This document shows, piece after piece, positions 17,498 through 52,989 of a stretch of 64,000 bases of DNA. The notes under the pieces were generated by a model. It ran no database searches and had not been told where the DNA came from. It saw only the letters and a list, made by a program, of their open reading frames with translations. Numbering within the stretch: the first letter of the stretch is position 1; the number at the start of each line of letters is the position of its first letter. Origin of the DNA: Asterochloris sp. CNOR1 (lineage: Eukaryota > Chlorophyta > Trebouxiophyceae > Trebouxiales > Trebouxiaceae); assembly GCA_963969365.1 (NCBI GenBank), contig OZ017756.1, forward strand, positions 248,001 to 312,000, given 5' to 3'. The translations under genes and the position numbers were made by a program.

Positions 17498-17618
17498 GGG
17501 TCGTTGGTCTAGTGGTATGATTCTCGCTTAGGGTCCTAAGCAAAATTGCGAGAGGTTTAACAGTAACTGTTGCTCTTCCCCGAGTTCAATGGCAAAGTGA
17601 ACGCTTCTCGGACGACCC
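17498..17618 (+). tRNA. tRNA-Pro (AGG) gene with three insertions
   Basis: Removing three inserts leaves a perfect plant-type tRNA-Pro. Acceptor stem GGGTCGT (17498-17504) pairs fully with ACGACCC (17612-17618); D arm GTCTAGTGGTATGAT; anticodon stem CTCGC/GCGAG with anticodon AGG at 17530-17532; T stem CCGAG (17580-17584)/CTCGG (17607-17611). Insert 1 (13 nt, 17534-17546) is at the canonical position 37/38 and its CCTAAGC pairs with GCTTAGG, covering the anticodon as usual in eukaryotic tRNA introns. Insert 2 (22 nt, 17557-17578) lies in the variable region and contains hairpin AACAG-taa-CTGTT. Insert 3 (15 nt, about 17591-17605) splits the T loop and the B-box promoter; its TGAAC can pair with GTTCA of the T arm. 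A T5 run follows at about 17633. Either a multi-intron tRNA gene or an elaborately disrupted pseudogene; intact stems favour the first. Confidence 0.8.
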
Positions 17619-18221
17619 CAAACGGCACCTTGATTTTTGGTGTAGTTGCAGAGCCACACAATGTTTCTTATGGAAACCTGGCATGCAGGTACGATTGATC
17701 TAGGGGCCGGATGGCATAAGGTAATTGACTATTGATAAGGAAGTGTTGCAAAGTGAAAGCATGAGGGGTGCACCTCATAAGTGCTTTTTGAACCTCAAGT
17801 CATCCCCACAAAGTGGTAAACAGAGTACACTGTTCTCACACAGCAAAATGCATCAAAAAAGTGCAGTAGTGGTGTGGGGCAGACGGTGTGATTGTAGTGT
17901 ACTTAGGTGTGAAATTTGACGTGAAAAGAGTGTGGACAAACAAGTGTGGTAGGAGTGGACAAAGAGTGTGAAATAAGTGTGATACAAGTGTGGGAACAAG
18001 TGCCTTACAGCAAACAAGGCAGGAGCCAGGCAGCTGGCCCTGTGGGCAGCTGGCTCCACGTGGTCCCAGCTGCTGTAGGCAGCTGCGCAGTCATAGCATG
18101 CTGTAGGTTGGCCCACACTTGGAGCATGTCTTGGTAATCGTACAGGCAGATCAAGAAATGTACCGGGCTAGAGCTGCCTGAGACAGGTACAGGCAATGGA
18201 TCTACTGCGTCATCGCTGGTG

Positions 18222-51305: not shown

Positions 51306-51375
51306 TCACATGAATTGTCAGTCCCATGCCCGTTCATTGTGGCCCCCGGACTTTAAATCCATCTCTCTCTCTCAG
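51306..51375. other. LINE 3' flank with CT microsatellite
   Basis: Seventy bases between the ORF2 stop and the tRNA-like sequence, including 'atctctctctctcag'. Either the LINE 3' UTR or the target flank. Confidence 0.4.
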
Positions 51376-51445
51376 CTGCAATTGCTTAGTGGTAAAGCAC
51401 CAGACTGCAAATCTGGGGACCCAGGTTCGATTCCTTGGTTGCTGC
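51376..51445 (+). tRNA. tRNA-Cys(GCA)-like sequence
   Basis: Anticodon arm CCAGA-CTGCAAA-TCTGG is perfect (anticodon GCA at 51407-51409). The D arm GCTT-AGTGGTA-AAGC pairs fully. The T arm CCAGG-TTCGATT-CCTTG has one mismatch, with a good B box GGTTCGATTCC. The acceptor stem pairs at six of seven positions. The two mismatches and the non-standard first base suggest a slightly decayed tRNA-Cys, or the tRNA-derived head of a SINE. No T-rich terminator follows closely, which favours the SINE or relic view. Confidence 0.55.
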
Positions 51446-52989
51446 ACCCCCACCAAGGGTATAAATTGGGAAGCAGGAGGAGTTGGCATGCCAAATGCGA
51501 ACATGTGCTCAAGAGGGCCGCTAGTGCCATCAGATAAATTTCTTCTAGCTAGACTTGACTCAGATTCCGACCAGACACCTAAGGACTTGCTCACATGAAG
51601 CCAGAGCCACCAGGTGAATCAGTTCATGCCGAGGTCCTTGCCTGCAGTGTCAGAGACAATGGGACAGTGGCTGCATCAATGACAAAGCTGCTGGGGTCGA
51701 GGCGCGGTTTGTGCCTGCATGTTGTATCTGTTGTGCCAGGGCCTGTGAAGTATCTGCTCTGGGACAGCAGGCAGTCTTGCAGGAGGGGCTTCCATGTCCT
51801 AACATGGCTTTAGTTTGGGCAGACAATGGTAGCATATTCGTCGTGGGGCAGCCAGAGCCAGGACGGGGCCTGCATGCCCTATGAGAGGTGCTGTACAGAC
51901 TTTTGCCAGCCCCCTCATCTTTTGAACTCTGGAGCCTGAGCCCCCAAGTAAGATTGGGGGGTGCTGAGGTCCATCTGCAGGCAATGCATGGCCTGCTGGG
52001 CCATGGGACACTGTGCTGGGATGGATGTGTGTGGTTCTGGCAGGCCTGGTTGGGCATGGTGCAAGGCAGCTGGCACCGTGCCTTGTGTGTGACGAGGTCC
52101 ATGGTGCATGCATGTGCTTGCCATCACGACTTTTTGTCTAATGTTTGCGCAGCTGCCCATTCAGACCTGATGTCATCCAAGTTTAGTATTTGCGGGGCCT
52201 GTGCTGTGCACAAAGAGCCAGATGGTGACGCCTGCAACACACCCACAGCATCGTCCTGGTGCTCAGGGGAAGCGGGGTGTGGCTGGTGCCTTCTTTTATG
52301 CACCTGGGAAGGCTGTGCCAGCAAAGCACAATCTGCTGCCGTCCCACAGGTAAGCTTAGCCTTGTCTTTTTCAGCGTCAAGTCTGTTGCTGTTGTGTAGT
52401 GGCATGTGCAATGTGTGCTGTGCAGCAACAGCTCAGTTGCCTCTCTCGTCGAGGACAAGTTGTCCTAAGCTGCTGAAGAGTGGGTGCGTCATAGATGTTG
52501 TGTTAATGTTCAGCAGCAATTTCAGGAGTTTGCCCTCAGTCTTTGTGGGGTTGGCACGACGATGGAGACTTAGCATCAACACACAGACAGTCTGAGTCAA
52601 TGTGCAGAGCGGAAGCCATAAATTTTGACTGGCTCTTCTGGGGGGTGGCGCCGCTGTGCAAGATGGTGCGTATGCACTGGTGATGCACCAGTATCATGCT
52701 CAGCCTTGGTCAGGGACCCAGGAGTGCTCCTCAAGGGAAGCCCTGGCGCTGTGCTCCTACCAGGGCGGTCTTCGCAAGCTGTCGCCGGAGTTTGGAGAGG
52801 GCGCTGCCATTGACATGGGGCTGTTGCCGGCTTATAGTTGCAAGCTGTCTGAGCAGCCATCTGCCACACGAGTTGAGCAGCTTTGCCGGCAACTTCAAAT
52901 GTGCAGTCCTCTCAGGCCAAACGCAAGTAGGTTTGCCATGGGCAAGGAGCTCCGCGCAGAGGTCTGCATTCTCAGGGAGGGGAGGCCCA
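51446..52989. other. Unassigned region
   Basis: Open frames occur on both strands (for example plus 51888-52595 and 52656-53117) but are rich in Cys/His/Trp typical of translated non-coding GC-rich DNA, and none matches a family I know. It may hold the 3' part of the F-box gene. Confidence 0.3.

Follow-up and report, generated by a model that had tools for sequence, protein, structure and literature searches.

An interrupted tRNA-Pro(AGG) gene

The window, which is the whole stretch of 64,000 nucleotides analyzed here, contains on its forward strand a tRNA-Pro(AGG) gene (17498–17619) split by three inserts of 13, 22 and 15 nt. An earlier sequence-only reading of this DNA gave the same three insert sizes and closed the gene at 17618, one base before its actual end at the discriminator C73. 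The parts of the gene are as follows:

17498–17533, + strand: exon 1, with the acceptor 5′ strand, D arm, anticodon stem 5′ strand and loop to nucleotide 37, including the anticodon AGG
17534–17546, + strand: insert 1, 13 nt, at 37/38, with a CUUAG/CUAAG pairing with the anticodon loop
17547–17556, + strand: exon 2, with nucleotide 38, the anticodon stem 3′ strand and the start of the variable (V) loop
17557–17578, + strand: insert 2, 22 nt, in the V loop, with an exact bulge–helix–bulge (BHB) motif; its V-loop position was picked using the BHB score
17579–17589, + strand: exon 3, with nucleotide 48, the T stem 5′ strand and the T loop to nucleotide 58
17590–17604, + strand: insert 3, 15 nt, in the T loop at 58/59, with the helix GUUC/GAAC; it splits the B box
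17605–17619, + strand: exon 4, with nucleotides 59–60, the T stem 3′ strand, acceptor 3′ strand and discriminator C73
17634–17638, + strand: TTTTT, likely the Pol III terminator, 14 nt 3′ of the gene

Removal of the inserts leaves a 72-nt tRNA with a complete cloverleaf and an AGG anticodon. The claim that all four stems are intact holds for the acceptor, anticodon and T stems, which are fully paired, whereas the D stem carries a single U–U mismatch (U13–U22) that, as read from the sequence, is common to the other proline genes of the genome. We take the mature molecule to resemble a plant tRNA-Pro, in agreement with the earlier reading. The parts stand in normal order, rather than with the 3′ half upstream of the 5′ half as in a permuted gene.

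As had been proposed, only insert 1 lies at 37/38, and insert 3, by its position at 58/59, breaks the B box. The three local pairings described before (GCTTAGG/CCTAAGC, AACAG/CTGTT and GTTCA/TGAAC) are all present. In its strict form, the BHB motif has its splice sites in two 3-nt bulges, which flank a helix of 4 bp (PMC3978253). The suggestion of such a motif at each junction stood for two of the three inserts: inserts 2 and 3 have the exact 4-bp helix, whereas insert 1 forms only three of the four pairs of a strict central helix. Insert 2 combines the helix AGAG/CUCU with the bulges GU^U and UC^C and the intron stem UAACAG/CUGUUG. Insert 1 instead has the A–I pair, as U–A at −6/−3, and it is the only one of the three with these hallmarks of a canonical eukaryotic 37/38 intron.

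The gene was called neither by ARAGORN (bacterial setting, no intron option) nor by Rfam. We give its structure from our own solver, which permits inserts in the anticodon loop, V region, T arm and 3′ acceptor strand. With the first 36 nt of the gene fused to 200 stretches drawn at random from the window, the solver returned any solution at all for 15 of them, none near the real gene (best total 22.5 versus 35.5 for the real gene; best pairing score 17 versus 25). The solver likewise came back empty for all 10 of the D-arm matches that were taken as chance. The MFE of the whole precursors is not unusual against shuffles (z = −1.24 for the window gene and −1.00 for the second copy described below).

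A second tRNA-Pro(AGG) copy and the other proline genes

The D-arm and anticodon-stem sequence of the gene has three close matches in the genome (56.4 Mb in 21 contigs): the window gene itself, the tRNA-Pro(TGG) gene L009 and L011. The last, on another contig (C17:1838430), is a second tRNA-Pro(AGG) gene, interrupted at the same three positions. The mature bases of the two AGG genes are identical at 72 of 72 positions, exon 1 included, while their inserts agree at only 10/13, 16/27 and 8/15 positions, and their 100-bp flanks (59/120 and 60/122 alike) at the level of random 100-mers (mean 0.51). Despite this divergence, the helix AGAG/CUCU of insert 2 occurs in both copies, with a different intron stem (CAGC/GCUG) at the same place in L011, and the helix GUUC/GAAC of insert 3 is kept. 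The V- and T-loop inserts of both copies thus have the 4-bp central helix with the splice sites in 3-nt bulges. The inner (intron) stem, scored as the inner helix only, comprises 6 and 4 bp for insert 2 and 1 and 0 bp for insert 3 in the two copies.

An ordinary, uninterrupted tRNA-Pro(AGG) gene had been named as the finding that would undo the multi-intron reading. We found none genome-wide, either with the D-arm and anticodon-stem sequence or with the spliced sequence, searches that a strongly altered or permuted copy could escape. As a DNA query, the spliced tRNA gave four matches: one is the TGG gene, and the other three are pieces of the AGG pair. Among the other proline genes, Pro(TGG) is uninterrupted, and Pro(CGG) (L064) has one insert at 37/38 and one in the 3′ acceptor strand. 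Spliced tRNAs and loci from the genome served to train two covariance models (R1 and R2), of which R2 gives the window gene 31.9 bits; with a copy of the gene in its training set, this score lends no independent support. As a separate observation, Pro(AGG)-2 and a tRNA-Ile gene (L067 and L042), both interrupted, form a close pair in opposite directions.

These copies bear directly on the idea that both AGG loci are defunct genes disrupted by their inserts, the codons CCU and CCC being served by a different gene or by tRNA-Pro(TGG) through wobble. The intact Pro(TGG) gene fits this idea, as does the account in PMC4090602 of eukaryotic D- and T-arm inserts, which mostly affect a single member of a large synonymous gene set and mark genes regarded as pseudogenes. 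Yet the exons of the two AGG loci are fully identical while inserts and flanks are not, a pattern repeated by the Ser(GCT) and Gly genes described below, no plain AGG gene was found in the searches above, and the inserts carry BHB helices. We consider the death of both loci highly improbable.

Interrupted tRNA genes across the genome

A genome-wide scan for further tRNA genes with ectopic inserts had been suggested as a check. Our gene set, drawn from four D-arm patterns, Rfam matches and one Ala pattern, comprises 42 readable nuclear tRNA genes; a tRNA-Cys-like repeat family and the unsolved Ser(TGA) locus L076 stand outside it. The sample is biased: only genes with an intact D arm can match the patterns, and plain genes are favored by Rfam. 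Within it, 23 of the 42 genes have at least one insert away from 37/38, four have a 37/38 insert only, and 15 have no insert. A multi-intron nuclear tRNA gene in a green alga, the reading first offered for the window gene, is the best account of this locus, with many more seen in this partial genome-wide check.

In 18 of the 23 genes, 32 inserts of 11–38 nt could be placed. Nine are at 37/38, nine in the T loop and three in the V loop; the stems hold the rest, with two in the 5′ and four in the 3′ strand of the T stem and one in the 5′ and four in the 3′ strand of the acceptor stem. At least two inserts occur in 10 of the 18 genes, and four have three. The remaining genes, coding for tRNA-Phe (L033, L039), Ile (L042), Arg(TCT) (L052) and Leu(CAA) (L083), have inserts without unique splice points and are outside the BHB test below. 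At a lax cut-off, the Rfam tRNA model added a single locus, Ile(TAT). The recurrence of the same pattern at many loci and contigs, with conserved exons and coherent structures, makes an assembly error or contamination extremely improbable as its source, and we saw no sign of either.

Two patterns, one requiring an intact D arm and the other the usual anticodon arm, found no initiator tRNA-Met genome-wide, and tRNA-Glu was absent among the matches of one of the D-arm patterns. The initiator Met and Glu genes may have D-arm inserts, a permuted order or a sequence unlike our search patterns. Neither D-arm introns nor permuted genes were found with search anchors that themselves require an intact D arm.

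With respect to transcription, a run of at least four Ts starts 1–38 nt 3′ of the gene end in all 21 listed genes, a count that stands without a random control. Such a downstream T run is expected of Pol III genes. The upstream regions share no motif: across 40 genes, none of the 60 columns just before the gene exceeds 50%, and a TATA-like element occurs in 5 of the 40.

Several individual loci merit description. Leu(TAG) (L092) has a 17-nt insert at 5/6 of the 5′ acceptor strand, whose central helix borrows one base of the 5′ leader. Asp-2 and a Phe gene (L061 and L039), both interrupted, form another close pair in opposite directions. A tRNA-Cys call at 51375–51448 of the window is the head of a repeat; comparison of 11 genomic copies revealed over 100 bp of similar downstream sequence common to them, and the repeat is a tRNA-Cys-derived SINE-like family. 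L040 is a separate, different tRNA-Cys gene.

The BHB motif at ectopic inserts

An exact-register 4-bp helix occurs in 16 of the 23 placed ectopic inserts, compared to 1.06 expected from shuffled inserts. Setting aside the V-loop inserts, for which placement is free, leaves 13 of 20 versus 0.96 expected. Excluding ten partly chosen placements (the V-loop inserts, Tyr, Arg(CCT), Leu(TAG) and all Gly ectopic inserts) leaves 8 of 13 versus 0.73, summed by hand. When both real and shuffled inserts were allowed to slide freely by ±3 nt, the expectation rose to 4.10, against 16/23 observed, with a maximum of 13 in 100,000 simulations. The 37/38 inserts, in contrast, are indistinguishable from chance in this test (1/9 versus 0.42; with sliding, 3/9 versus 1.11).

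These counts are to be read with the manner of placement in mind. Placements were mostly the solver's first choice, and the solver score includes a BHB-helix bonus. The departures from first choice are Gly-1 (second), eMet (third, 22.0 versus 22.5), Ile(TAT) (a tie) and Asp-2 (set by the plain Asp gene). For Arg(CCT), the solver preferred a four-insert solution that shares both placed inserts, and the chosen one has one acceptor mismatch; the 5′ acceptor insert of Leu(TAG) was spotted by eye and taken out before the solver run.

The exact helix is missing in seven of the 23 ectopic inserts: those of Ile(TAT), both of Asp-2, the eMet acceptor insert, that of Ala-2 and both Gly T-stem inserts. 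In isolation, moreover, the exact BHB of insert 2 is outcompeted by a fold in a shifted register, by 1.6 and 2.3 kcal/mol in the two AGG copies. The seven inserts favor a reading in which the endonuclease splices only the 37/38 insert, and the V- and T-loop inserts are either retained in a tRNA with long arms or excised by another nuclease; PMC4090602 and PMC3978253 likewise describe introns of the Guillardia nucleomorph that are removed though many form no defined BHB. Against it, a retained 15-nt T-loop insert would destroy the T-loop fold, Ala and Asp have insert-free genes with identical mature sequences, and the BHB helix is enriched as above. We regard such restriction of splicing to 37/38 as highly improbable.

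Identical exons with different inserts

Paired copies of other tRNA genes show the same contrast of constant exons and variable inserts. Asp-1 has no insert and Asp-2 has two, yet their mature sequences are identical (72/72). Similarly, Ala-1 lacks an insert while Ala-2 has a 12-nt insert in the T loop, without an exact BHB helix; their mature sequences are identical (73/73) and their flanks unrelated. The two genes (L096 and L097, on contig C2 near 3445840 and 3447083) lie 1.2 kb apart in opposite directions. Since the plain and interrupted genes have identical exons, the mature sequences of these two tRNAs are fixed. The Ser(GCT) copies, with identical exons (81/81), have different inserts at 62/63 with the same helix site, and the exons of the Gly(GCC) copies are also identical (70/70). 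Constant exons amid drifting inserts and flanks are what selection on a spliced product would give; exon-limited gene conversion, as an alternative cause of the identity, seems less likely.

The splicing endonuclease and the host

The catalytic domain of the tRNA endonuclease (PF01974) has two matches over cut-off in the genome, each read as a single exon. The first fragment has Sen34 as its nearest solved chain (3.4e-07), and in a by-eye reading its tyrosine, histidine and lysine regions align to those of Sen34; for the second, the nearest solved chain is Sen2 (4.8e-04). The genome thus contains homologs of both catalytic subunits, Sen2 and Sen34, as judged from these matches. As to the host, contig C20 (110,056 bp) encodes a cytochrome b. 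Among the best 120 of 8000 matches, the closest are 88% identical, and the few with a species name are green (79–85% identity): Chloroparvula, Jaagichlorella, Prototheca, a prasinophyte and Coleochaete. An ORF on C21 (215,390 bp) is presumably a plastid-type ribosomal protein S12, by recognition.

Proposed processing and its meaning

Taken together, the locus is very probably a functional nuclear gene for tRNA-Pro(AGG), in which a canonical intron and two ectopic ones are spliced by the tRNA endonuclease. This reading is favored by the same sites and identical exons in two AGG copies with diverged inserts and flanks, by the constant exons of the Asp, Ala and Ser(GCT) pairs, by the Sen2 and Sen34 homologs and by the failure of our searches to find a plain AGG gene. 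It is also favored by the exact motif of the V-loop insert in both AGG copies with different intron stems, by the 16 of 23 exact helices against either expectation and by the 8 of 13 that remain without the partly chosen placements. Weighing on the other side are the seven inserts without the helix, the register-shifted fold of insert 2, the ordinary stability of the precursors and the placements chosen by BHB score or against the solver's first choice. So does the reliance of the human endonuclease on the mature body and the 37/38 site for recognition, as described in PMC10539383 and PMC8479045.

In the proposed pathway, Pol III would make the Pro(AGG) precursor, in which exon pieces would pair with the 3′ part of each ectopic intron to form the 4-bp central helix with splice sites in the flanking bulges. 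A Sen2/Sen34-type endonuclease would cut each junction, recognizing the ectopic introns by their BHB shape and the 37/38 intron in the usual eukaryotic way, and a tRNA ligase would then join the exons. The anatomy, the conservation, the BHB enrichment and the enzyme homologs in this account are observed; transcription, cutting, ligation and the order of intron removal are its proposed steps. In the tRNA-Ile(UAU) of Cyanidioschyzon merolae, the anticodon intron is reported to be removed last (PMC9602550).

More tentatively, we would put somewhat short of even the likelihood that the splicing endonuclease of this green-algal lineage has escaped the 37/38 ruler and that BHB introns have come to occupy 23 of the 42 readable genes, acceptor stems and B boxes included, with the Asp-1/Asp-2 and Ala-1/Ala-2 pairs still recording recent gain or loss. 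If this is true, transcription of the nine genes with placed T-loop inserts would need a TFIIIC able to cope with an interrupted B box, or else a promoter that does not depend on that box. Reviews place eukaryotic ectopic multiple tRNA introns in a red alga and relict algal nuclei (PMC3978253); a green alga with introns in most tRNA arms would let an independently relaxed Sen complex be set beside the human and yeast ruler mechanism. Such a genome would offer a system for asking how Pol III reads split-B-box genes and for watching tRNA intron gain and loss between identical gene copies. In practical terms, much of the tRNA set of a genome of this kind escapes the standard tRNA model.

Comparison with known systems

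Chondrus crispus tRNAs have introns in the D or T regions. More generally, ectopic and multiple tRNA introns are described from Crenarchaeota, C. merolae and the Guillardia nucleomorph (PMC4090602, PMC9602550). The closest parallel is C. merolae, likewise a nuclear system in a photosynthetic eukaryote, with two to three introns in different arms of several tRNA genes and BHB-type motifs: its tRNA-Ile(UAU) has introns at 12/13, 37/38 and 53/54, and processing intermediates were observed by RT-PCR (PMC9602550). However, C. merolae is a red alga with D-arm introns and permuted genes, whereas the present system is green-algal, with introns in the V loop, T loop, both T-stem strands and the acceptor strands.

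Among Crenarchaeota, Pyrobaculum islandicum has a tRNA-Pro(UGG) with introns at 25/26, 37/38 and 56/57 (PMC4090602), and thus also three introns in one tRNA-Pro gene, with BHB motifs at ectopic sites; acceptor-stem introns are known there too (PMC3978253), although enzyme and host are archaeal. The Guillardia theta nucleomorph shares ectopic and multiple introns, with three in some genes, and their excision is reported as confirmed by RT-PCR (PMC4090602, PMC3978253). It differs in being the relict nucleus of an engulfed alga, with introns of 3–24 nt, many without a defined BHB. Disrupted tRNA genes are also described in green algae, namely the permuted genes of prasinophytes and Auxenochlorella, in which, unlike here, the halves are swapped and the junction is mostly at 37/38 (PMC3978253, PMC12636532).

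The sources differ slightly on ectopic introns of green derivation. A 2014 review states that B. natans nucleomorphs and green algae have almost none (PMC3978253), whereas PMC4090602 attributes ectopic introns to chlorarachniophyte nucleomorphs, which are of green origin, as well as to those of cryptophytes. In the open-licence literature, at the level of titles and abstract openings, we found no report of green algae whose nuclear tRNA genes have ectopic or multiple introns. The kind of ectopic intron seen here thus appears to be one already known, and the green-algal lineage a place where it was not expected.
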